From Mesorhizobium opportunistum WSM2075 (GTDB taxonomy: Bacteria > Pseudomonadota > Alphaproteobacteria > Rhizobiales > Rhizobiaceae), in assembly GCF_000176035.2 (NCBI RefSeq), contig NC_015675.1, forward strand, positions 5,460,001-5,524,000: 64,000 nucleotides of DNA. Reading direction: 5' to 3'. Both the position numbers and the translations under genes were made by a program. Below the pieces are notes generated by a model. The model searched no databases. It was not told the DNA's origin and saw nothing but the letters and a program-made list of their open reading frames with translations. Position 1 is the first letter of the stretch, and every line of letters begins with the position of its first letter. Positions 39,876 to 51,109 of this stretch are shown piece after piece.

Positions 39876-41477
39876 ATGGACAAACCGGTGACGACATCAG
39901 CGCAGGAGACCGCGCTTGCCTGCCTCGACGGCATCCAGCCGTCGCTGTCGCAGTGGACGCGCACCATCTTCGATTTCGGCGAGACCGCATGGCGCGAATA
40001 CCAGTCGGCCGCCTGGTATGTCGCGCGGCTGAAGCATGAGTGCTTTTCCGTCGAGGAAGGCTCGGGCGGCATGCCGACCGCGTTCTGCGCCCACTGGACG
40101 AATGGCGCCGGGCCGACGATCGGCCTTTATGCCGAATATGACGCGGTGCCCGGCAATTGCCAGGACGCGGTGACGGTGAAGCAGTCGCGGCCCGGCCTTG
40201 GCTTCGAGGCCGCGGGCCACACCGATCCGCATTCAGGGCTCGGCATGGCGAGCCTCGGCGGCCTGCTTGCGGTCAAGGCTGCCATGCAGCGGCACGGCAT
40301 TGCCGGCACGTTGCGCTTCACCGGCGAACCCGCGGAGAAGGTGCGCGGCTCGAAGCCGATCCACGCGGCCAAGGGCTATTATGACGGCCTTGCCGGCATG
40401 ATTTCCTTCCATCCCTTCTACATGCTGCCGCTCTGCAACACGGCGCGCTGGGACACGCATTGCGGTGCGGCCTATTCGATGATCTACCGCTTCGTCTGCG
40501 ACGAACCCGAAAATTGGGTTCGCGCAGGCGATGGTGCACCGATCCCGCAGGCGCATTCGGCGGTGCGGGCGCCCGGCGCCAACGACGCGCTGATGACGAT
40601 GTACATGACATCCAAGGCGCTGCGCGATTCCATGCTGCCGCACCAGGGCGGTTGGTCGATCAGCGAGGCGATCCTGACCGCCGGCCAGGCGACCGCCGAC
40701 AATCTGCCGGCGGGCCTGGCCGAGATCCAATACATGATCCGCGTGCCGACCATTGCCATGGCCGAACAGGTCACTGCCGTGCTCGATCGCAATGCCACGG
40801 CCGCCGCCGCGATCAGCGGCTGTCGATTCGAGCGTCACTGGGTATCGAAATCGCGGCCGGGGCTTGCCAACCACGCCATGGCCGAGATCGCCTATGCCGC
40901 GCTGTCGACGATCGGGCCGCCGCACTGGGACGAGGCCGCCAGAGCGGTCGCGCGCGAAATCCAGGTCAATGCCGGGGGTACCGCGACCGAGAACCCGTTC
41001 ATCGACGAGCTGGAACGACTGATCGACCCCAGGCAGGCCGAGGAAATCCTGCGCCGTGACCTGCCGCCGTCGCAGCTGAATTCGACCTCCGACGACTACA
41101 CCGACATGAGCTGGCATGCGCCGACGGCGAGGTTCTATGTCGCCCGTCCGGCGTTGCGTTCGGCAAGCGGCCAGCCCTACCCGGGCTGGGTGATGAACGC
41201 GCTTGGCGGCATTACCGCGACGATCGATCCGATGGTCATCTGTGCGGCCAAGACGGTCGCGCTGGCGGCGCTGCGCTTGCTGGAGGACAAAACCGCCCGC
41301 GATGCGGCGATGGACGAGTTCGTCACCCGCACCGGCGGCGGCATCGGCGGTGCGAACTGGATCGCGCCGCTCTGCGACTACGACCCGCCGATCCATTTCC
41401 GCTGGCCCGAATATGTCACCACCGCGCGCGGCCGCGACTGGTGGATACCGAGCGGTCAACCCAACCAAACCGCATGA
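39876..41477 (+). CDS. M20-family amidohydrolase, AbgB-like
   Basis: 533 residues. The metallopeptidase M20 fold is visible in IGLYAEYDAVPG (Asp ligand region), AAGHTDPHSGLGMASLGGLLAVKAAM, LRFTGEPAEKVRGSKPIHAAKGYYDG (Glu region) and NSTSDDYTDMSWHAPTARFY. The closest known type is the p-aminobenzoyl-glutamate hydrolase subunit B, which cleaves aromatic amide bonds, but sequence reading cannot fix the substrate. It starts the divergent two-gene operon with the DDAH-like gene, 21 bases apart, and probably cleaves the amide of a compound brought in by the Pot-type importer. Confidence 0.88.
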   Translation: MDKPVTTSAQETALACLDGIQPSLSQWTRTIFDFGETAWREYQSAAWYVARLKHECFSVEEGSGGMPTAFCAHWTNGAGPTIGLYAEYDAVPGNCQDAVTVKQSRPGLGFEAAGHTDPHSGLGMASLGGLLAVKAAMQRHGIAGTLRFTGEPAEKVRGSKPIHAAKGYYDGLAGMISFHPFYMLPLCNTARWDTHCGAAYSMIYRFVCDEPENWVRAGDGAPIPQAHSAVRAPGANDALMTMYMTSKALRDSMLPHQGGWSISEAILTAGQATADNLPAGLAEIQYMIRVPTIAMAEQVTAVLDRNATAAAAISGCRFERHWVSKSRPGLANHAMAEIAYAALSTIGPPHWDEAARAVAREIQVNAGGTATENPFIDELERLIDPRQAEEILRRDLPPSQLNSTSDDYTDMSWHAPTARFYVARPALRSASGQPYPGWVMNALGGITATIDPMVICAAKTVALAALRLLEDKTARDAAMDEFVTRTGGGIGGANWIAPLCDYDPPIHFRWPEYVTTARGRDWWIPSGQPNQTA

Positions 41478-41498: not shown

Positions 41499-42431
41499 AT
41501 GACCGTCCATGATCGCATCGTCGCCGAACCGTTCTCGCTGCAGCGCCGCAACCCGGCCGGCGGCACCAAGCCGCTGACCGTCTGGGGCTTCGCCAACGAA
41601 ACCGACGTCTTGACCGACGTCCTGCTTGGCTCGCCGAATTTCCTGCGCCATCTGTCGACCAGTTCGCTGTCGCGCAAGCATCTGCGCGAGGCGCCCTGCA
41701 ACGTCCAGATCGCGCAGGCGCAGCACAAGGACCTGGTCGCCGCCTATGAGCATTTCGGCGTCAGCATCCATTGGCACGAGCCGACGCCGGAACTGCCGAT
41801 GCAGGTCTACTCGCGCGATTCCAGCGTGATGACGCCCTATGGCGCCATTATCACCGCCATGGCCAACTGGTGGCGGCGCGGCGAAAACTACGCCGCCATC
41901 CGCACCTACGAGAAACTCGGCATCCCGATCTACGATATGGTCACGGCGGGCACGTTCGAGGGTGGCGACTTCAACGTCATCGAGGACGGCGTGGTGCTGA
42001 TCGGCTGCGGTGGCGCCCGCACGCAGGAGGAAGGCGCGCGCCAGGTGCAGGCCTGGTTCGAAAAGGAAGGCTGGGAGACACGCATCGCCTTCATCGACGA
42101 GTATTATGTCCATATCGACCTGATGGTGGTGCCGATCGCCGAGAAGCTCACTGCCGTCTGCCTCGCCTGCACCGAGCCCGGCATCGTCGACTGGCTGAAA
42201 GGCAAGGGCCACGAGATCATCGACGTGCCGTTCCAGGACACGATGGCACTCGGCTGCAACTTCATGTCGCTCGGCAAGGACCGGGTCATCGCGCCGACCT
42301 CCAGCCAAACGCTGATCGGCCAGCTCAAGGCGCGCGGCTTCGAGGTCGCGGCAGTCGACATGAGCGAGATCTCCAAGACCGGCGGCGGCATCCACTGCAT
42401 GGCGCAGGCGCTGAAACGCGAAGCGGCCTGA
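41499..42431 (+). CDS. Dimethylarginine dimethylaminohydrolase / amidinotransferase-family enzyme
   Basis: 310 residues of the pentein fold, with a ribosome site GAGGAG ahead. The catalytic triad of guanidino-modifying enzymes is present: Glu154 in GTFEGGDF, His205 in YVHIDLM and the nucleophile Cys300 in TGGGIHC. The N-terminus (TVWGFANETDVLTDVLLGSPNFLRHL) matches the DDAH and arginine-deiminase-related group. It would hydrolyse a guanidino or N-substituted arginine group to a ureido product. Adjacent to the M20 hydrolase and a polyamine-type importer, it likely works on the same compound. Exact substrate unknown. Confidence 0.88.
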   Translation: MTVHDRIVAEPFSLQRRNPAGGTKPLTVWGFANETDVLTDVLLGSPNFLRHLSTSSLSRKHLREAPCNVQIAQAQHKDLVAAYEHFGVSIHWHEPTPELPMQVYSRDSSVMTPYGAIITAMANWWRRGENYAAIRTYEKLGIPIYDMVTAGTFEGGDFNVIEDGVVLIGCGGARTQEEGARQVQAWFEKEGWETRIAFIDEYYVHIDLMVVPIAEKLTAVCLACTEPGIVDWLKGKGHEIIDVPFQDTMALGCNFMSLGKDRVIAPTSSQTLIGQLKARGFEVAAVDMSEISKTGGGIHCMAQALKREAA

Positions 42432-42588: not shown

Positions 42589-43206
42589 ATGAACAAGATC
42601 GATACCCACAACAGCAAGGGCAGTGACGAGCGCTCGACAGCCACCAGCCTCTCACGGCTTGGCACGAGGCTGAAGCTCTCCCGGCAGACACGGGGCCTGA
42701 CCCTGAAGGCGCTCGCCACCTCCGCCAACTGCTCCGAGAGCCTGCTTTCCAAGGTCGAGAACGGCAAGGTCTCGCCCTCGCTTCCCATGCTCCACCGGCT
42801 TGTCGAGGTGCTCGGCACGAACATTGGCTGGATGTTCGAGGAGTCCGATGGCGAGGAAGGCATCGTCTTTCGAGCTGGAGCGCGGCCGTTGATCGCGCTC
42901 GATCCGCTCCGGCGCGGCGAAGGCATTTCGCTCGAGCGAGTCATCCCCTATTCGCCGGGCCATCTCCTGCAGTGCAATATCCATCATATCGAGGCGGGCG
43001 GTGAAAGCGCCGGCCCGATCCAGCATGCCGGCGAGGAAGTCGGCTATCTCCTGGAAGGCGCCATCGAACTGATGGTCGGTGAGAAGACGTTTCGCCTGTC
43101 CGCCGGAGATTCCTTCGTCTTCAATTCGGAACTCCCCCATTGGTACCGCAATGTCGGCGACGAACGCGCCAGCATTTTCTGGGTGAACACGCCCGCGACA
43201 TTCTGA
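42589..43206 (+). CDS. XRE-family regulator with C-terminal cupin domain
   Basis: 205 residues from the ATG at 42589; no strong ribosome site exists, but upstream in-frame starts would add an unrelated lead. The helix-turn-helix covers about 16-75 (LGTRLKLSRQTRGLTLKALATSANCSESLLSKVENGKVSPSLPMLHRL). The C-terminal cupin (HIEAGGESAGPIQHAGEEVGYLLEGAIELMVGEKTFRLSAGDSFVFNSELPHWYRN) would bind a small ligand, with metal-like His and Glu at QHAGEE and ELPHW. It sits directly before the sugar-transporter operon, whose promoter carries two palindromes that are likely its operators. Confidence 0.9.
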   Translation: MNKIDTHNSKGSDERSTATSLSRLGTRLKLSRQTRGLTLKALATSANCSESLLSKVENGKVSPSLPMLHRLVEVLGTNIGWMFEESDGEEGIVFRAGARPLIALDPLRRGEGISLERVIPYSPGHLLQCNIHHIEAGGESAGPIQHAGEEVGYLLEGAIELMVGEKTFRLSAGDSFVFNSELPHWYRNVGDERASIFWVNTPATF

Positions 43207-43234
43207 CAGGCGGTCTCCCTTTGCCGACGCTAAT

Positions 43235-43267
43235 TCAAGTCACTTGACAAGAAATCAAGTATCTTGA
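43235..43267 (+). promoter_or_regulatory. Twin palindromic operators over the transporter-operon promoter
   Basis: Two copies of TCAAG-nnn-CTTGA: TCAAGTCACTTGA at 43235-43247 and TCAAGTATCTTGA at 43255-43267, centre to centre 20 bp, about two helical turns. A TTGACA -35 box (43244-43249) starts in the first copy, and AATTAT (43267-43272) lies 17 bp later as a -10. Outer arms extend to TAATTCAAG / CTTGAATTA. A repressor dimer pair bound here would cover the whole promoter. The neighbouring XRE-cupin protein is the obvious candidate. Confidence 0.75.
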
Positions 43268-43339
43268 ATTATGCCCATGCGCTCAGGCGCCATGTGAGCC
43301 CGATCAAGGGCCTTTTTCGCAAAACCAAGGGGAACCGGA

Positions 43340-44281
43340 ATGCGTCTTACAAAGATCCTTTCAGGCTGCGCCGCGGCCATCGCCATGACCTTCGCGCTTG
43401 GTTCTGGCTCCGCCATGGCCGAGACCTATGCACTCGTCACCATCAACCAGCAGGCTCTTTTCTTCAACCAGATCAATGACGGTGCGACAGCCGCGGCGAA
43501 GGCCGCCGGCGTCGATCTCGTCATCTTCAACGCCAACAACGTGCCGAGCGCGCAGAACGACGCGATCGAGAACTACATCACCCAGAAGGTCGACGGCATC
43601 ATTCTCGTCGCCATCGATGTCAACGGTGTGAAACCGGCGATCACCGCGGCCAAGGCCGCCGGCATTCCGGTCATTGCCATCGACGCGCAGATCCCGAATG
43701 GCGACAATGTCGCCTTCGTTGGTGTCGACAACACCAAGGCGGGCGAGGATATCGGCAAATTCTACGCCGACTACGTCAAGACCAAGATGAATGGAACCGC
43801 CAAGATCGGCGTTGTCGGCGCGCTCAATTCCTTCATCCAGAACCAGCGCCTCGACGGTTTCAAGAAGGCCGTCGCCGACAGCGGCCAGAAGGTCACCTTC
43901 CTCGATACGGTCGACGGTCAGAACGTGCAGGACGTCGCCCTTTCCGCCTCTGAAAACCTGATGACCGCCAATGCAGACATGACGACGCTTTATGCGACCG
44001 GCGAGCCGGCGCTGCTCGGTGCGGTTTCCGCCGTCACCAGCCAGGGCCGCACCGGCGACGTCAAGGTGTTCGGATGGGACCTGACCAAATCGGCGGTGCA
44101 AGGTCTCGAGGAAGGCTGGGTGGTCGCCGTCGTCCAGCAGGATCCGGCTGGCGAAGGCAAGGCCGCCATCGAGGCCTTCGGCAAGCTCAAGAAGGGCGAG
44201 AAGATCGATCCGATCATCAATGTTCCGATCACCATCGTGACCAAGGAAAATGTCGGCCAGTTCAAGGACATGTTCAAGTAG
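43340..44281 (+). CDS. Sugar-type ABC transporter substrate-binding protein (RbsB-like)
   Basis: 313 residues with GGGGAACC upstream and a clear signal peptide (MRLTKILSGCAAAIAMTFALGSGSAMA). The mature part is a two-lobe periplasmic binding protein of the ribose/autoinducer-2 class: INQQALFFNQINDGATAAAKAAGVDLVIFNA, then VDGIILVAIDVNGVKPAITAAKAAGIPVIAID and ATGEPALLGAVSAV. Such proteins bind pentoses, hexoses, nucleosides or sugar alcohols. It is the first gene of an operon ending with a hydrolase at 51109. A strong stem-loop follows its stop. Confidence 0.94.
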   Translation: MRLTKILSGCAAAIAMTFALGSGSAMAETYALVTINQQALFFNQINDGATAAAKAAGVDLVIFNANNVPSAQNDAIENYITQKVDGIILVAIDVNGVKPAITAAKAAGIPVIAIDAQIPNGDNVAFVGVDNTKAGEDIGKFYADYVKTKMNGTAKIGVVGALNSFIQNQRLDGFKKAVADSGQKVTFLDTVDGQNVQDVALSASENLMTANADMTTLYATGEPALLGAVSAVTSQGRTGDVKVFGWDLTKSAVQGLEEGWVVAVVQQDPAGEGKAAIEAFGKLKKGEKIDPIINVPITIVTKENVGQFKDMFK

Positions 44282-44297
44282 TATCCTCCCCGGACCA

Positions 44298-44338
44298 CCG
44301 GGCCGCGCATCGACCTGATGGTTGCCCGCGCGGCCCGG
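44298..44338 (+). promoter_or_regulatory. Intra-operon stem-loop after the binding-protein gene
   Basis: CCGGGCCGCGC (44298-44308) and GCGCGGCCCGG (44328-44338) form a perfect 11-bp GC stem in the 95-base gap between binding protein and ATPase. Such structures usually stabilise the upstream mRNA segment and lower downstream expression, giving more binding protein than membrane components. Confidence 0.6.
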
Positions 44339-44376
44339 CGACCGATTGAACGTGTCGTCCTTCGAGAACTGGAACC

Positions 44377-45177
44377 ATGATGAGCGATGGCGAGACCTAC
44401 CGCGTCAGGATGACCGGTATTTCCAAACGATACGGCCCCATCCAGACGCTGGATGATGTTTCACTAACCTTGAAGCCCGGCGAGGTGCTCGGCCTGGTCG
44501 GCGACAACGGCGCCGGCAAATCCACGCTGAGCAAGGTCTTGTCCGGCGCGGTCATTCCCGATTCCGGCAGCATCGAGATCGACGGCAACGCCGTGTCCTT
44601 TTCCTCGCCGGCCGATGCCCGCGCCGCTCGGGTGGAGATGGTCTACCAGGACCTTTCGCTCTGCGACACGGTGGATGTGGCGGGCAATCTCTTTCTCGGC
44701 CGCGAACCGCGCCGCCACGTTCTTGGCGTCCCCTTTCTCGACAACAGGCGCATGCATGGCGAGACGCGCGAGATGCTCGACCGGCTCGGCATCGTCATCG
44801 CCGATACCAGGCTCAAGGTCGAAAACCTCTCCGGCGGCCAGCGGCAGTCGATCGCCATCGGCCGTGCCGCCTCCTTCGACCCGTCGGTGCTGATCATGGA
44901 CGAACCGACTGCGGCCCTCGCGGTGGCGGAAGTCGAGGCGGTCCTGGAACTCATCCGCGCCGTCAGCGCCCGTGGCGTCAGCGTCATCCTCATCACCCAT
45001 CGGCTGCAGGATCTGTTCCTGGTCTGCGACCGCATCCAGGTCATGTACGAGGGCCGCAATGTCGCCGAACGCAAGATCGGCGACACCAGCATCGAGGAGG
45101 TCGTCAACCTGATCGTCGGCCGGAAATTCAGTGCGCGGTCGGCGCGTGCCAGCCGCGATGAGGGGGTACAGCCATGA
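44377..45177 (+). CDS. Sugar ABC transporter ATP-binding protein (single-domain)
   Basis: 266 residues. Walker A is LVGDNGAGKSTLSKVLSG, signature LSGGQRQSIAIGRAASFDP, Walker B VLIMDEPTAALAVAE and switch region ITHRLQDLFLVCD. Only one ABC cassette is present, as in the FrcA/fructose type, in contrast to the double-cassette RbsA. Two adjacent ATGs can start it. The stop overlaps the permease start by four bases. Confidence 0.93.
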   Translation: MMSDGETYRVRMTGISKRYGPIQTLDDVSLTLKPGEVLGLVGDNGAGKSTLSKVLSGAVIPDSGSIEIDGNAVSFSSPADARAARVEMVYQDLSLCDTVDVAGNLFLGREPRRHVLGVPFLDNRRMHGETREMLDRLGIVIADTRLKVENLSGGQRQSIAIGRAASFDPSVLIMDEPTAALAVAEVEAVLELIRAVSARGVSVILITHRLQDLFLVCDRIQVMYEGRNVAERKIGDTSIEEVVNLIVGRKFSARSARASRDEGVQP

Positions 45178-46193
45178 ACGCCACCTCGCCGTCCGCCGAG
45201 ATTGGCGTTTCGCCGCCCAAGCGCGCCCACAAGGGAACGTGGAAGGATGTGGCGATAGCCAATGGCAGCGTCGTCTCCATCGCGCTGTTCTTCATCGTCG
45301 TCTGCGTGATCTTCTCGCTGGTCACCGGTTCCTTCCTGACGACGCCCAATCTGCTCAACATCGTGCGCCAGTCGGCGCCGCTGCTGATCGTCGCGGCGGC
45401 GATGACCTTCGTCATAACCACCGGTGGCATCGATCTCTCGGTCGGTTCGGTGCTGGCGCTGACGGCAACGCTCTCGGCCGTTGCCCTCCAAGCTGGCCTG
45501 CCGTGGCCGCTGGTCGTCGTCGCCATGCTGGCGCTTGGAGCGGCGATCGGCGCCCTGCAGGGCTTCTTCATAGCCTATGAGCGCATACCGGCCTTCATCG
45601 TCACGCTTGCCGGCCTTTCCGTCATCCGCGGCGTGGCGCTGCTGATCACCGGCGGCTACTCGATCCCGGTCGAACCGAGCAGTTTCTTCGTCAACATCGG
45701 CAGGGCCTGGTTTCTCGGCGTGCCGGTGCCGGCGCTGCTCGCCCTTCTCGTCCTGATCGTCGCCTATCTCGCCTTCAACCAGACGCCGTTCGGCCGCTAT
45801 GTCACCGGCATCGGGGCCAATGCCGAAGCCGTGCGCCGCGCCGGTGTCGACACGCGCTTCATGATCCTCTTCGTCTACATTCTGTCAGGCATGGCGGCGG
45901 CGGTCGCCGGTGTCATTCTGGCGGCCCGGCTCGGATCCGGCTCATCGAATTCCGGCCAGGGTTTCGAGCTCGATGTCATCGCCGCCGTGGTGCTTGGCGG
46001 CACCAGCCTGTTCGGCGGGCGCGGCACGATCATCGGCACCATACTCGGCGCGCTGACCGTCGCGGTCATCGGCAACGGCCTGATCCTGGCACATATGTCG
46101 CCGTTCCTGACACCGATCGTTACCGGCACAATCATTCTCGTTGCCATCTGGCTGAATTTCCGGCTGTTCAAGGGCGCAACGCGGAGCCGCTGA
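45174..46193 (+). CDS. Sugar ABC transporter permease (RbsC-like)
   Basis: 339 residues, about ten membrane helices, of the BPD_transp_2 type. Characteristic text: TTGGIDLSVGSVLALTATLSAVALQ and FGRYVTGIGANAEAVRRAGVDTR, then AAVVLGGTSLFGGRGTIIGTILGALTVAVIGNGL. It starts inside the ATPase stop (ATGA) and is followed after one base by the phosphotriesterase-like gene, showing that transporter and enzymes are one transcript. Confidence 0.93.
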   Translation: MNATSPSAEIGVSPPKRAHKGTWKDVAIANGSVVSIALFFIVVCVIFSLVTGSFLTTPNLLNIVRQSAPLLIVAAAMTFVITTGGIDLSVGSVLALTATLSAVALQAGLPWPLVVVAMLALGAAIGALQGFFIAYERIPAFIVTLAGLSVIRGVALLITGGYSIPVEPSSFFVNIGRAWFLGVPVPALLALLVLIVAYLAFNQTPFGRYVTGIGANAEAVRRAGVDTRFMILFVYILSGMAAAVAGVILAARLGSGSSNSGQGFELDVIAAVVLGGTSLFGGRGTIIGTILGALTVAVIGNGLILAHMSPFLTPIVTGTIILVAIWLNFRLFKGATRSR

Positions 46194-46194
46194 C

Positions 46195-47283
46195 ATGGAT
46201 CATCTGTTCGACGACACGCCAAGGCAAAGGGCGCCGATCGGTGTTCGCTCCGGCACCGTGATGACCGTTACCGGCCCGGTCGCGATCGCCGACATGGGTG
46301 TGACGCTGATGCATGAGCATATCCTGCTCGATGGCTCGACATCCTGGAAATGCCCTTGTCATCCCGACGAGAAGAAGATCGCCGAGCAGCCGGTCAGCAT
46401 GGAGATCATCGGCGAGCTGCGGATGAACCCCTACATGAACCGCGACAATGTCTCGCTCGACGACAGCGACCTGGCGCTTTCGGAACTGGCCAAGTACAGG
46501 GCGCTCGGCGGCCATACCGTCGTCGATGCGACCAATATCGGCATCGGCCGCGATCCGGTGAAGCTGGCGCGCATCGCCCGCAGTTCCGGATTGCGGATCG
46601 TCATGGGCACGGGCTTCTACCTGCAGCACACCCACCCCGACTGGCTGAAGGCGATGGACGTCGACGATGTCACCGAATTCCTCGTCAACGATGTCGGCGG
46701 CGGGGCGGTGCAGCCCGAGATCATGGCCGGCATCATCGGCGAGGTCGGCGTCAGCAAGGATTTCACCGACGAAGAACGCAAGTCGCTGCGGGCCTCGGCG
46801 CGCGCCTCCAGGATAACCGGCGTGCCGCTGACTATCCACCTGCCCGGCTGGGAACGGCTGGCGCATGACGTGCTCGACGTCGTCGAGGCGGAAGGCGCCG
46901 ATCTCAGGCACACGGTGCTCTGCCATATGAACCCCAGCCACAACGATCTCGCCTACCAGAGAAGCCTCGCCGCGCGCGGCGCCTTCCTGGAATACGACAT
47001 GATCGGCATGGACTTCTATTATGCGGACCAGGATGCGCAGTCGCCTTCGGATGAGCAGAATGCGCAGGCAATCCGCTCGCTGATCGACATGGGCCTGGTC
47101 GATCGGCTTCTTCTGTCGCAGGACGTGTTTTTGAAGATCATGCTGACACGCTTTGGCGGCTTCGGCTACGGCTTCCTCCTCAAGCATTTCGTGCCGAGAC
47201 TGAAACGCCATGGCGTCGACCAGTCGGCCATCGACCGCATGCTCATCGACAATCCAAAGACCGTGTTCGCCGAAGGCCCCTGA
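46195..47283 (+). CDS. Phosphotriesterase-related metal-dependent hydrolase
   Basis: 362 residues, an amidohydrolase-superfamily TIM barrel. Binuclear metal ligands can be followed: H40 and H42 in LMHEHILLDG, a bridging acidic residue E183 in GIIGEVGVSK where true phosphotriesterases carry a carboxylated Lys, H215 (TIHLPG), H244 (LCHMNP) and D310 (LSQDVF). A Glu at the bridge is also seen in E. coli PHP. Members hydrolyse lactones or phosphoesters. Here an additional segment WKCPCHPDEKK (52-61) with two Cys is unusual. In this operon it may open a lactone or cyclic ester of the imported sugar derivative. Confidence 0.88.
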   Translation: MDHLFDDTPRQRAPIGVRSGTVMTVTGPVAIADMGVTLMHEHILLDGSTSWKCPCHPDEKKIAEQPVSMEIIGELRMNPYMNRDNVSLDDSDLALSELAKYRALGGHTVVDATNIGIGRDPVKLARIARSSGLRIVMGTGFYLQHTHPDWLKAMDVDDVTEFLVNDVGGGAVQPEIMAGIIGEVGVSKDFTDEERKSLRASARASRITGVPLTIHLPGWERLAHDVLDVVEAEGADLRHTVLCHMNPSHNDLAYQRSLAARGAFLEYDMIGMDFYYADQDAQSPSDEQNAQAIRSLIDMGLVDRLLLSQDVFLKIMLTRFGGFGYGFLLKHFVPRLKRHGVDQSAIDRMLIDNPKTVFAEGP

Positions 47284-47315
47284 GCCCGCGGATCAACACA
47301 ATCAAGGGAGTATAC

Positions 47316-48086
47316 ATGTCCAGGAAGAAAGTTCTTCTCGCAGGCGAGTCCTGGGTCTCGACCGCGACTCATATCAAGGGCTTCGACCAGTTTCCGACCG
47401 TGACCTATCACACCGGCGCCGATGAACTACTGGCCGCACTGAAGGACGGTCCGTTCGACGTCACCTTCATGCCGGCGCATGAGGCGCAGCGGAATTTCCC
47501 GCAAACCATGGACGCGCTTTCGGCCTATGACGCGGTCGTGCTTTCCGATCTCGGCGCCAACACGCTGTTGCTTCACCCCGACACCTGGATCCATTCCAAG
47601 CCGACGCCGAACCGGCTGCGCCTGCTGCGCGAGTATGTCGGCAATGGCGGCGGCCTGCTGATGTTCGGCGGCTATTACAGCTTCCAGGGCATCAACGGCG
47701 GCGCGCGCTATCACAAGACGCCGGTCGAGGACGTCCTGCCGGTCACGTGCCTGCCCATCGACGACCGTGTCGAGGTTCCGGAGGGCTATGCGCCGGCCGT
47801 CGTCGGCCCGCAGGACCATCCAATTCTCAAGGGCTTGGGCAAGGATTGGCCGATCCTGCTCGGCTTCAATGAGGTCACGGTCAAGGACGGTGCGGAGGTT
47901 CTGGCCACCGTATCTTCCGACTACCGTTCGCTGCCGCTGCTGGTAACCGGCAAATATGGCAAGGGCCGGACCGTCGCCTGGACCTCGGACGTCGGCCCGC
48001 ACTGGCTGCCTCCGGGCTTCATCGCCTGGGGCGGCTACAAGACCCTGTTCGAACAGATGCTGGGCTGGGCAACGGCCAAGGACTAG
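47316..48086 (+). CDS. GATase1-like / ThuA-like protein of unknown function
   Basis: 256 residues with AAGGGAG ahead. It resembles the GATase1_like (DUF1355) group: KKVLLAGESWVSTATHIKGFDQF, YDAVVLSDLGANTLLLHP, LRLLREYVGNGGGLLMFGGYYSFQGI, and C-terminal PLLVTGKYGKGRTVAWTSDVGPHW. Real class I amidotransferases have a nucleophile Cys in the G-x-C-x-G elbow; here the equivalent spot reads MFGGYYSFQG (about 116-125) and the only Cys nearby is C145. So amidotransferase activity is unlikely. A ligand-binding or hydrolytic role in the operon is more plausible; function unknown. Confidence 0.82.
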   Translation: MSRKKVLLAGESWVSTATHIKGFDQFPTVTYHTGADELLAALKDGPFDVTFMPAHEAQRNFPQTMDALSAYDAVVLSDLGANTLLLHPDTWIHSKPTPNRLRLLREYVGNGGGLLMFGGYYSFQGINGGARYHKTPVEDVLPVTCLPIDDRVEVPEGYAPAVVGPQDHPILKGLGKDWPILLGFNEVTVKDGAEVLATVSSDYRSLPLLVTGKYGKGRTVAWTSDVGPHWLPPGFIAWGGYKTLFEQMLGWATAKD

Positions 48087-48099
48087 CAAGGGATTAGCC

Positions 48100-49011
48100 A
48101 TGCGCGTCCATGTCGTCGGCAATGTCTGCGTCGATACGACGTTTCGACTGGACCGGTTCCCGCGGCCGGGCGAGACGCTGAACGCATCGGAACACGCCGA
48201 CGGACTTGGCGGCAAGGGCGCGAACCAGGCGGTAGCCGCCGCGCGCACCGGAGCCGACGTCCGGTTCTGGACGGCGATCGGCAATGATGCCGCCGGGGCT
48301 TGGATAAGGGAACAATTGCGCCGCGACCTCGACACCAGCCATCTGACGATGCTGCCCAAGGAGAGCGACCGTTCGACGATCATAGTCGATGCGCGGGGCG
48401 AGAACCTCATCGTCACCGGTGCCAGTTGCGCCACTGCCTTCGATCCCCTGGCAGAGAGTGGATTCGCGGCCTCGATCGAACGCGGCGACATCGTCGTGAT
48501 GCAGGGCAATCTCCATCCGGATGCAACGACAGCCTGCCTGCGGACGGCGCATGAAGCGGGCGCCGTGACCATCTTCAATCCAAGCCCGCTTGCAACTGGT
48601 GCGACGCCGCATTTGAGCGATATCAGCCTCGCCATCGCCAATGCGGGCGAAGCGGCGCAACTGACCGGAAAAGGCGATCCTGACGCGGCAGCCCGCGAGC
48701 TGATCCGTCGAGGCGCAGGCACCGCTATCGTGACGCTTGGCGCGCTTGGCTGCCTCGTCGCCGATGGTGAAGGACGGATCGAGCGGATCATGGCGCCCAA
48801 GGTGGCTGTGACGGACACCAGCGGCGCGGGTGACGTGTTTTGCGGTTGCCTCGCCGGCTGCCTTGCCGCCGGCATGGATCTCGCTGCAGCGGCCAGGATT
48901 GCGGTTCGCGCTGCGGCCATCTCGGTCGGACGCGCCGGAACGCTCGGCTCCTGCCCCGACAGGCAGGAGATGAAAACGCTCATGGAAACGACGGAAGCGG
49001 AAACCGCATGA
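48100..49011 (+). CDS. PfkB-family carbohydrate/nucleoside kinase
   Basis: 303 residues from the ATG at 48100, 13 bases after the previous stop. Ribokinase fold: VHVVGNVCVDTTFRLDRFPRPGETLNA, the substrate motif GGKGANQAVAAARTG and the C-terminal signature DTSGAGDVFCGCLAG with catalytic Asp in GAGD. It phosphorylates a sugar or nucleoside with ATP in the cytosol. With a ribose-type importer upstream, the likely acceptor is a pentose or ribosyl compound. It overlaps the BtpA-family gene by ATGA. An upstream extension of the frame covers the previous gene and is not coding. Confidence 0.92.
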   Translation: MRVHVVGNVCVDTTFRLDRFPRPGETLNASEHADGLGGKGANQAVAAARTGADVRFWTAIGNDAAGAWIREQLRRDLDTSHLTMLPKESDRSTIIVDARGENLIVTGASCATAFDPLAESGFAASIERGDIVVMQGNLHPDATTACLRTAHEAGAVTIFNPSPLATGATPHLSDISLAIANAGEAAQLTGKGDPDAAARELIRRGAGTAIVTLGALGCLVADGEGRIERIMAPKVAVTDTSGAGDVFCGCLAGCLAAGMDLAAAARIAVRAAAISVGRAGTLGSCPDRQEMKTLMETTEAETA

Positions 49012-49856
49012 CAAAATCCCCTAAATCCATCGGCTCCAAGCAGGGCGAGAACGACGCGCTGCGATCGATCTTCGGCAGAAGCAAGGTGGTGATCGGCGTC
49101 GTTCATCTCGCACCCCTGCCGGGCGCGCCGCGCTATGATGGCGAGGCGGTCGAGGCCATCTATCAACGCGGCCTCGACGATGCCAAAGCCTATCTCGATG
49201 GCGGTTGCGACGGCGTGATCGTCGAGAACCACGGCGACGTGCCATTCGCCAAGCCAGATGACATCGGCCCCGAAACCTCCGCCTACATGTCCGTCGTCGC
49301 CGACCGTATCCGCCGCGAGCTTGGCCGGCCGGTCGGCATCAACGTGCTCGCCAATGCCGCCATTCCCGCGCTGTCGATCGCCAGTGCCTCCGGTTCTTCC
49401 TTCGTGCGCGTCAATCAATGGGCCAACGCCTATGTCGCCAATGAGGGCTTTATCGAAGGCGAAGCGGCGCGCGCCATGCGCTTCCGTGCCAGGCTTCGGG
49501 CCAACGGCATCCGCATCTTCGCCGACGCGCATGTCAAGCATGGCGCCCATGCGATCGTCGGCGACCGGCCGGTCGAGGAACAGGTCAAGGACCTGGTGTT
49601 CTTCGACGCCGATGCGGTCATCGCCACTGGACAGCGCACCGGTCATGCCGCCGACCTCGGCTACATCAGGATGATCAAGGACGCGGCCGGATTGCCGACC
49701 CTTGTCGGCAGCGGGGTGACGCCCGACAATGCCAACGACATCCTCGACATCGTCGACGGCGTCATTGTCGCGAGTTCCCTGAAGCATGACGGGGTCTGGT
49801 GGAACCAGGTCGACCCGCAACGGGTGATCGCCTTCATCCGTGGCCTCAAGCGATGA
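49008..49856 (+). CDS. BtpA/SgcQ-family TIM-barrel protein
   Basis: 282 residues. It matches the BtpA family (PF03437): VVIGVVHLAPLPGAPRYDGE, GCDGVIVENHGDVPF, PVGINVLANAAIPALSIA, FVRVNQWANAYVANEGFIEGEA, ADAHVKHG and LVGSGVTPDNANDIL. BtpA was named in cyanobacteria for photosystem I assembly, but members in non-photosynthetic bacteria sit in sugar operons (SgcQ in E. coli) and are predicted aldolases or nucleosidases. The GVTPDN phosphate-binding-like turn suits a phosphorylated substrate made by the upstream kinase. Both ends overlap neighbours by four bases, so it is an integral step. Confidence 0.9.
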   Translation: MTKSPKSIGSKQGENDALRSIFGRSKVVIGVVHLAPLPGAPRYDGEAVEAIYQRGLDDAKAYLDGGCDGVIVENHGDVPFAKPDDIGPETSAYMSVVADRIRRELGRPVGINVLANAAIPALSIASASGSSFVRVNQWANAYVANEGFIEGEAARAMRFRARLRANGIRIFADAHVKHGAHAIVGDRPVEEQVKDLVFFDADAVIATGQRTGHAADLGYIRMIKDAAGLPTLVGSGVTPDNANDILDIVDGVIVASSLKHDGVWWNQVDPQRVIAFIRGLKR

Positions 49857-51109
49857 GGCTTGCGCCGCAGATCGACGGCGAAAGACTGCTGCGACGGCTC
49901 GACGCGTTTGCCCGGATCGGCGCGACGCCGGCCGGGGGCGTCAACCGGCAGGCGTTCAGCGTCGAGGATCGAGGCGCCCGGCGCCTGCTGGCTGAACTGG
50001 CGCTGGAGCGCGGATTCACCGTTTTCCAGGACGGGATCGCGAACCTCTTCATCCGTCGCGAGGGCGCGGACGCAGCACTGCCGCCGCTCCTGATCGGCAG
50101 CCATCTCGACAGCCAGCCAACGGGCGGCCGCTTCGATGGGGCGCTCGGGACGCTTTCCGCCTTCGAGGTTCTCGAAGCCCTTGAGGACGTGAAGGCTGAG
50201 AGCCGTATGCCGATCGAGGTCGTCGCCTGGGCCAATGAAGAGGGCAGCCGCTTCGCCCCGGGCGTGATGGGCTCCATGGCGTTCACCGGCGCCGACGCCG
50301 CCGCATGGAAATCGATCGTCGGCAGCGACGGTGCCTCCCTCGCAAAGGAGCTCGACGCGACGATCGCAGCCTTGCCGGAGGCTGCCCTGCGTCCGATCGG
50401 CATGCCGCTATCAGGTTACATCGAGCTGCATATCGAACAGGGGCCTTCCCTGGAAAAGGAGCAGTTGCCTATCGGTGTCGTGACAGCCGTCCAGGGCACG
50501 CGCTGGCTGGAGGTTTCCATCGAGGGCACCGCCGGTCACGCCGGCACCACGGGCCTTGCCTACCGCAGGGATCCGATGGTCGCCGCGATTGCCGCCATAC
50601 ACAGGCTGCAGACGACAATCATGCCGCTCGACAGCAGCGCGCGGCTGACCGTAGGCCGGATCGCCGCGCAACCAGGATCGATCAACGCCATACCGCAGTC
50701 GGTGACCTTCACCGTCGACCTCAGGCATCCGCGGCCTGAGCGGCTTGATGCCATCGAGGCCGAGGCGCGCCAGGCCTGCACGGCCGAGGCGGAGGCACAG
50801 GGCTGCATGGCAACGATCAAACGATCCTTCGACATGCCCGGCGCTGCTTTCTCCGCCGATATGATCAAGATCGTCGAAGACGCCGTTAGGTCGCTTGGGC
50901 TGTCGCACAAGCAGATGATATCGGGCGCCTTCCATGACGCACTGTTCATCGCCCGCGTGGCGCCTGCCGCGATGATCTTCGTGCCGTGCCGCGACGGGCT
51001 CAGCCACAATGAGGCGGAATATGTGGAGCCCGCGGACGCGATCACTGGAACGCGGGTCCTGTTGCAAGCCGCCATCGCCGCGGCTTCGTCGCTTGAATTA
51101 CGGCGATAA
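49853..51109 (+). CDS. M20-family N-carbamoyl-L-amino-acid hydrolase / allantoate amidohydrolase-like
   Basis: 418 residues from the ATG at 49853 inside the previous stop. Metal-binding text of the HyuC/AllC group is complete: LIGSHLDSQPTGGRFDGALG (His, Asp), VVAWANEEGSRFAPGVMGS (Glu-Glu), YIELHIEQGPSLEKEQ (His), and a C-terminal LSHNEAEYVEPADA (His). Dimerisation domain signatures TRWLEVSIEGTAGHAG are present. These enzymes split off ammonia and CO2 from ureido or carbamoyl groups. Its place at the end of a sugar-kinase operon is odd and suggests that the transported molecule joins a sugar to a ureido or carbamoyl moiety. Confidence 0.9.
   Translation: MRLAPQIDGERLLRRLDAFARIGATPAGGVNRQAFSVEDRGARRLLAELALERGFTVFQDGIANLFIRREGADAALPPLLIGSHLDSQPTGGRFDGALGTLSAFEVLEALEDVKAESRMPIEVVAWANEEGSRFAPGVMGSMAFTGADAAAWKSIVGSDGASLAKELDATIAALPEAALRPIGMPLSGYIELHIEQGPSLEKEQLPIGVVTAVQGTRWLEVSIEGTAGHAGTTGLAYRRDPMVAAIAAIHRLQTTIMPLDSSARLTVGRIAAQPGSINAIPQSVTFTVDLRHPRPERLDAIEAEARQACTAEAEAQGCMATIKRSFDMPGAAFSADMIKIVEDAVRSLGLSHKQMISGAFHDALFIARVAPAAMIFVPCRDGLSHNEAEYVEPADAITGTRVLLQAAIAAASSLELRR

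Follow-up and report, generated by a model that had tools for sequence, protein, structure and literature searches.

A conserved rhizobial operon joining a ribose-type importer to a PTE-family hydrolase, a ribokinase-like kinase, and a BtpA/SgcQ-family barrel, with a nitrogen-bearing sugar conjugate as candidate substrate

Which compound would a bacterium import and dismantle with a ribose-type transporter, a metal hydrolase of the phosphotriesterase (PTE) family, a sugar kinase, a BtpA/SgcQ-family barrel, and an M20 hydrolase encoded side by side? The question is raised by an operon in a 64,000-nucleotide stretch of Mesorhizobium opportunistum WSM2075 DNA (the window). The genome around it is a single contig of 6.88 Mb, and the named bacteria closest to it at this locus belong to Mesorhizobium. 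The parts of the operon are familiar; the combined set is conserved in rhizobia and some other bacteria, and we found no description of it. We read it as an inducible operon for the uptake and breakdown of a nitrogen-bearing, ribose-like sugar conjugate, nucleoside-like or ribosylamine-like. That identification stands at about an even chance, and such a conjugate fits the parts best. The genes and presumed control elements are as follows.

42589..43206, plus strand: XRE-family helix-turn-helix plus cupin regulator (PF13560/PF01381 and PF07883)
43235..43247, unstranded: palindrome 1, TCAAGTCACTTGA, presumed operator (palindrome searches of window, genome, and relatives)
43244..43272, plus strand: sigma-70-type promoter match TTGACA-17-AATTAT lying over both palindromes (10 of 12 consensus positions)
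43255..43267, unstranded: palindrome 2, TCAAGTATCTTGA, presumed operator, 20 bp from palindrome 1 (same searches)
43340..44281, plus strand: ribose-type (CUT2) substrate-binding protein, family of PDB 5hsg (PF13407)
44377..45177, plus strand: single-domain ATP-binding cassette (ABC) ATPase, 266 amino acids (PF00005)
45174..46193, plus strand: ABC permease (PF02653)
46195..47283, plus strand: PTE-family metal hydrolase (PF02126, 224.5 bits; metal-site motif residues)
47316..48086, plus strand: GATase1_like protein (PF07090, 380 bits)
48100..49011, plus strand: PfkB ribokinase-like sugar kinase (PF00294)
49008..49856, plus strand: BtpA/SgcQ-family barrel (PF03437, 248.5 bits; TIGR00259, 233 bits)
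49853..51109, plus strand: M20 hydrolase, hydantoinase/carbamoylase type (TIGR01879, 391.5 bits, cutoff 204)

From the binding-protein gene to the M20 gene, the eight genes (43340–51109) share one strand, downstream of the regulator gene, and are joined by a 95-bp gap, a 4-bp overlap, gaps of 1, 32, and 13 bp, and two further 4-bp overlaps. A preliminary description, made from the window's letters, had called these genes tightly linked; its junctions are exact (three 4-bp overlaps, one 1-bp gap, no gap above 95 bp). It also named the importer, PTE, PfkB, BtpA, and M20 families correctly, and left out the GATase1-like gene. For the regulator, PfkB, BtpA, and M20 genes, internal ATGs were taken as starts in place of those of the longer mechanical open reading frames. 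Together, the regulator and the eight genes look like one regulated unit.

Conservation was examined around two anchors. For BtpA we took the best 80 of 352 matches, a selection that biases the sample toward close relatives. The eight genes from regulator through BtpA stand in order on one strand in 72 of these 80 loci, and the regulator gene lies on the same strand in 74. The exceptions are three short contigs (L037, L074, L096), a locus without adjoining importer or regulator (L067), one in which the GATase1-like gene has moved (L107), one without the regulator (L084), one without a PfkB match (L091), and one in which the regulator and PfkB appear only as shorter matches (L068). The M20 gene directly follows BtpA in 62 loci and is absent from 15 of the 77 decidable ones, three being undecidable. 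Median identity to the window is 87% for the ATPase, 85% for the GATase1-like protein, 84% for BtpA, 81% for both the binding protein and the PTE, 80% for the permease, 63% for the M20 protein, and 55% for PfkB. Just upstream of the regulator, on the same strand, lie an amidohydrolase-like and a dimethylargininase-like gene (39876–41477, 41499–42431); present in 13 of the 80 relatives, they were left out of the operon.

The second anchor, the PTE, was sought in 297 genomes of the window's family at E values up to 1e-60 and found in 40: the window, 19 relatives with the XRE-type regulator, 17 with a LacI-type regulator, and 3 distant matches. The other operon enzymes do not accompany the distant PTEs (37–38% identity), two of which lie close to ABC genes of distant kinship; the remaining 37 genomes carry the operon or its visible part. 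The BtpA-anchored set overlaps in DNA with 13 of the 19 XRE-type loci; it does not with the other 6 or with any of the 17 LacI-type loci, whose PTEs are 55–57% identical to that of the window. Importer genes adjoin the PTE in all 35 testable loci (18 of 18 XRE-type, L131 being too short, and 17 of 17 LacI-type), including 22 of 22 testable loci new relative to the BtpA-anchored set. Among XRE-type loci, the GATase1-like gene follows the PTE in 16 of 18 testable cases, 17 of 18 have PfkB and BtpA, and 16 of 17 have M20. All 17 LacI-type operons hold GATase1-like, PfkB, and BtpA genes; 16 add a TenA-like gene and 11 an AllC-type M20 gene. Because 10 of the 17 carry both, M20 and TenA-like proteins are not mere substitutes for one another.

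The LacI-controlled version, with a TenA-like gene that is not part of the window's own version, extends to other Alphaproteobacteria and to Enterobacterales, with sets in Pantoea (L116), Paracoccus (L120), Pannonibacter (L006), Neorhizobium (L113), and Rhizobium johnstonii pRL9 (L007). In the family of one further genome (G631), taken as Enterobacteriaceae from likeness to Klebsiella structures, the PTE was found at E values up to 1e-40 in 12 of 149 genomes, one match being distant (36%, L186). The other 11 loci all keep the PTE and an M20 gene beside the importer, the M20 being of ArgE/DapE type instead of carbamoyl type; PfkB and BtpA occur in 10, a TenA-like gene in 9, and a GATase1-like gene in 8. 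A tblastn search of the loci found no GATase1-like gene in L184, L185, or L187, the last belonging to a genome (G673) whose operon is apparently split across two contigs (L187, L230).

Control of the XRE-type operon may reside in the two palindromes ahead of the binding-protein gene. With at most one mismatch, the palindrome TCAAGNNNCTTGA has four matches in the window, strands counted, against 0.45 expected, and no shuffle reached four. Its exact form TCAAGTNNCTTGA occurs at three further single places in the genome, and there is no second exact pair elsewhere in the 6.88 Mb. Upstream regions came from the window and from the 76 fetched loci, out of 80, in which the binding protein has a plus-strand match (L037, L067, L074, and L096 have none). 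The pair at 20-bp spacing is present in all 77 with 0–4 mismatches of 20, perfectly in 43, and an Azospirillaceae metagenome-assembled genome (L081) keeps it with 4 mismatches. In 1,540 single-base shuffles the best pair had 5 mismatches and none had 4 or fewer, a statistic inflated by the kinship of the loci. The pair, as opposed to the single palindrome, is the unusual feature, and we infer that the XRE-cupin protein binds it. Promoter matches of the quality seen here number four in the 9-kb region, against 1.1 expected.

The importer proteins depart from those of ribose uptake. The binding protein scores 117 bits against the RbsB equivalog NF007936, below its cutoff of 337, and differs from the sugar-binding protein 2ioy at three aligned places that we take to be ribose contacts (Ala for Asn, Ala for Arg, Gly for Asn). 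The ATPase matches only the first half of sugar ATPase models of about 500 residues. The closest PDB entry to the binding protein is 5hsg (337 bits, versus about 90 for the E. coli ribose-binding protein), which shares 82–93% identity with the eight enterobacterial-version binding proteins that match it best. In the available text of one paper, 5HSG is a Klebsiella pneumoniae protein named only as a docking target (PMC12459267).

The closest structure to the PTE is 3k2g (432 bits), followed by PTER 9efa (227 bits) and by parathion hydrolases and phosphotriesterases (about 98–117 bits); 3k2g shares 84% identity with the PTE of the Paracoccus operon and 54% with that of the window. The motif residues H40, H42, E183, H215, H244, and D310 are present, and for those beyond the counterparts of three PTER ligands we presume metal-ligand roles. 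According to excerpts of the PTER study, those ligands are H26, H28, and E169, the enzyme hydrolyzes N-acetyltaurine, and its best PDB match is 3K2G, a protein from Rhodobacter sphaeroides (PMC11374699). The window PTE reaches 96.7 of the 500 bits required by the organophosphate hydrolase model NF041153 and 89 of 630 for the lactonase model NF045706. On these scores, it is nearest the PTER (amidase) branch, nearer than to the organophosphatases.

None of 13 aligned GATase1-like proteins has a Cys at what we take to be the usual nucleophile position. The protein is predicted not to be a cysteine-dependent glutaminase, and its database label, glutamine amidotransferase, is probably wrong. Similar PDB entries are 2gk3 and 3soz, cytoplasmic proteins deposited with no function stated. 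The window's genome has another GATase1_like gene outside the window (L153, G000:C1:4132118-4132870), which lies in a LacI/ABC importer cluster with an ATPase, a binding protein, and two permeases; the 20 kb examined there showed no PTE, PfkB, or BtpA match. In L203 (the genome of L107) and L197, no GATase1-like gene follows the PTE; one lies upstream on the other strand, in L203 with LacI and ABC genes.

The kinase, whose structure model has a predicted local distance difference test score (pLDDT) of 95, scores 222 bits against the ribokinase equivalog TIGR02152, below the cutoff of 299.65, and 23 bits against the hydroxymethylpyrimidine phosphate (HMP-P) kinase model. Its best PDB matches are Klebsiella 3i3y and 3ikh (141 bits, versus 133 for E. 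coli ribokinase), titled as ribokinase with D-ribose and with ATP and glycerol, respectively. They share 57–86% identity with the eight enterobacterial-version kinases that match best. The operon kinases keep the GGKG-NQ and GAGD motifs and have Q-G-N where RbsK has Q-L-E (10 of 10 non-RbsK rows). The Asn of this triad, N137, occurs in 31 of 31 XRE-type kinases at a place where E. coli RbsK has a Glu that presumably touches ribose. The enzyme thus appears to be ribokinase-like, one residue being altered. On sequence grounds, three orphan structures, 5hsg (binding protein), 3k2g (PTE), and 3i3y/3ikh (kinase), would belong to one system.

BtpA clears the cutoffs of TIGR00259 (153.4) and PF03437 (30) and stays below that of the photosystem I biogenesis equivalog NF045918 (206 of 400 bits). 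An AlphaFold2 model built from 72 rhizobial-type and haloarchaeal sequences is a barrel (pLDDT 81, predicted TM score 0.83). A fold search with it singled out no one reaction: TrpF, HisF, RPE, thiamin phosphate synthase, TrpA, and others matched about equally, and many barrel families tie, aldolases and epimerases among them. The model suggests a phosphate-binding-type barrel. Residues invariant in the 72 sequences include H33, E73, N74, N112, N116, R134, D173, K177, H178, and G234-S235-G236. In a broader set of 40 sequences, many distant members, L118 and L119 among them, lack the K-H pair, which makes it probable that the family divides into two or more functional branches. On a Sagittula plasmid (L114, 6145–10496), a carbohydrate kinase, two BtpA genes, two genes without a Pfam match, and a TenA gene stand in a row near AllE and M20 genes.

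The window's M20 protein is, by family, a hydantoinase/carbamoylase-type amidase, scoring 219 bits against the AllC equivalog TIGR03176 (cutoff 597.75). The preliminary description had the pathway cleave a ureido or carbamoyl group. The family assignment behind that proposal stands; the claim itself rests on one optional gene, missing from the 15 loci noted above and replaced in the enterobacterial version by the ArgE/DapE type (TIGR01910, 218–223 bits in three members, cutoff 217.6). Two TenA-like proteins score 44 and 59 bits against thiaminase II (TIGR04306, cutoff 130). Since the M20 and TenA-like genes vary, their products probably act on the non-sugar part of the substrate.

These assignments can be assembled into a pathway for a nitrogen-bearing ribose conjugate. 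The XRE-cupin protein, or the LacI protein in the other version, would bind the palindromes or its own operator and release upon binding the compound or a product. After import, the PTER-type metal hydrolase and the M20 hydrolase would cut amide-type bonds in the non-sugar part; in operons that encode it, the TenA-like protein would break a further C-N bond in the same part. Phosphorylation of the sugar would fall to the ribokinase-like kinase, and BtpA would rearrange or cleave the phosphosugar to a pentose phosphate entering central metabolism. From the earlier proposal of a pathway for a pentose-containing molecule, one conserved, regulated unit with its importer has endured, and a pentose fits the Klebsiella kinase crystallized, by its title, with D-ribose.

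A narrower version of this proposal, tentative and rather doubtful, makes the substrate a ribosylamine, namely a nucleoside that is modified or has its ring opened. Its 5-phosphate would then be formed by the kinase, BtpA would open or isomerize the phosphoribosyl-amine, and the hydrolases and TenA-like protein would trim the base remnant. BtpA might then, just as speculatively, resemble a catabolic relative of TrpF and HisA. Two loci offer weak hints. On an Aminobacter plasmid (L122, 233–8783), a BtpA gene with 37% identity and the K-H pair lies near purC-like, purH, phosphoribosylanthranilate isomerase (TrpF-like), and amidohydrolase genes. On a Streptosporangium plasmid (L121, 850–8798), one with only 26% identity and without that pair has, within about 7 kb and on the opposite strand, genes for FolE, QueE, 6-carboxytetrahydropterin synthase, and phosphoribosyltransferase, a set hinting at a deazapurine cluster. 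The contexts of L118 and L119 point instead to ordinary sugars.

Several observations weigh against the conjugate as substrate of one pathway. The proposed pathway is read from gene content, and amidase activity of the PTE would be a matter of kinship only, because its relatives include lactonases and phosphoesterases. The single palindrome is not enriched genome-wide (6 matches versus 5 for a reversed control pattern). The kinase diverges much faster than the importer, PTE, GATase1-like protein, and BtpA (55% versus 80–87%), and 3i3y may owe its D-ribose to soaking with a common sugar. The BtpA genes of L118 and L119 accompany FGGY kinases and dehydrogenases of sugar-type operons. One genome (G515) has two importer-bearing clusters, importer-PTE-GATase1-like (L154) and LacI-importer-TenA-BtpA-PfkB (L229), and another (G615) has LacI-importer-PTE-GATase1-like-M20 with no BtpA match at an E value of 0.001; given this split set and the missing BtpA, a single linear pathway is not compulsory.

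Other partial sets bear on how the enzymes are grouped. The L198 operon lacks PfkB and BtpA, and the same genome holds a PfkB-BtpA pair elsewhere without an importer (L228). The preliminary description had counted enzymes found apart from the importer against itself; this does occur, and it is rare among the loci examined. A shortened cluster in G759 has neither binding protein nor regulator, and no BtpA match. A PfkB-type kinase adjoins BtpA also in Haloferax (L115) and Roseomonas (L117); counting L228 and L229, the two genes tend to keep together outside this operon as well. We read this as two linked half-pathways, usually merged: one hydrolyzes the non-sugar part, and the other phosphorylates the sugar and acts on it through BtpA. 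The halophile pentose bisphosphate pathway was set aside as a model for the pair: the accessible text of its description names a PfkB ribose-1-phosphate kinase and not BtpA/SgcQ (PMC9700705), and BtpA is absent from a Haloferax annotation review (PMC8305020).

Could the sugar carry no base at all? An N-acyl amino sugar, a sugar acid, or a sugar lactone is a possible, if doubtful, substrate: the PTE would open the lactone or remove an acyl group, M20 would remove another acyl, and PfkB and BtpA would supply kinase and aldolase or epimerase steps. The PTE family does contain lactonases, the enterobacterial M20 falls in a deacylase subfamily, BtpA lies elsewhere beside FGGY kinase and dehydrogenase genes, and aldolases and epimerases are among its fold matches. 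Yet both the lactonase and organophosphatase models score far below cutoff, and a route of this kind leaves little room for the TenA-like genes of 16 of 17 LacI-type operons. It is unlikely that the operon simply takes up ribose or another common pentose and carries the remaining enzymes as passengers. This reading would account for the ribose-type binding protein, the ribokinase-like kinase, and the D-ribose in 3i3y, but not for the unmet ribokinase and RbsB cutoffs, the three substitutions relative to 2ioy, or the PTE and M20 genes kept beside the importer in every one of the 11 enterobacterial loci.

The enterobacterial pairing of TenA-like and ArgE/DapE-type M20 genes recalls TenA and YlmB, raising salvage of a thiamin-like pyrimidine in which M20 would be a deformylase and TenA an aminopyrimidine hydrolase. 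We consider this very improbable: the TenA-like proteins score far below the thiaminase II cutoff, the kinase scores far higher with the ribokinase model than with the HMP-P kinase model, and the window's own version lacks TenA. Phosphorus scavenging from organophosphates, to which the PTE family name and intact metal-site motifs might point, is barely credible given the low organophosphate hydrolase score, the closer kinship to PTER, and the absence of a phosphatase among the eight genes.

Known systems each share some parts with the operon. The rbs ribose operon likewise has a CUT2-type binding protein, a permease, and a PfkB ribokinase-like kinase; here the ATPase is single-domain, the regulator is XRE-cupin, PTE, GATase1-like, BtpA, and M20 genes are added, and neither the binding protein nor the kinase reaches the ribose equivalog cutoffs. 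Cyclic ureides are broken down by a hydantoinase or dihydropyrimidinase and then a carbamoylase, a scheme resembled by an amidohydrolase-kind metal hydrolase with a TIGR01879-family M20. The window's first enzyme, however, is of the PTE family and not a dihydropyrimidinase, a sugar kinase and BtpA are added, and M20 is sometimes missing or replaced. Mammalian PTER, the N-acetyltaurine hydrolase, shares the PTE branch and, in the excerpts of its report, the nearest structure 3K2G; the window PTE sits in a bacterial operon and is closer to 3k2g than to PTER. The E. coli sgc cluster also places a BtpA-family gene (SgcQ) in a sugar-type uptake cluster, but it uses a phosphotransferase system and is not known to have a PTE, GATase1-like, or PfkB gene. 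TenA/YlmB thiamin salvage shares TenA-like and M20 genes with the LacI-type version, but not its ribokinase-like kinase and BtpA or its weak TenA-like scores. Our literature search on BtpA with PfkB, phosphotriesterase, TenA, and ribokinase found no paper describing this gene set, in agreement with the preliminary description.

The operon would represent a compact, patchily distributed pathway, to judge from the 40 PTE-positive genomes among 297. Joining three separately filed structures gives ready material for ligand screens. Work on this system could assign functions to BtpA/SgcQ, to GATase1_like PF07090, and to bacterial PTER-branch hydrolases, and would correct misleading names such as glutamine amidotransferase and phosphotriesterase. 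If the substrate is a ribosylamine, the step proposed for BtpA would be, to our knowledge, a first biochemical role for the BtpA/SgcQ family.

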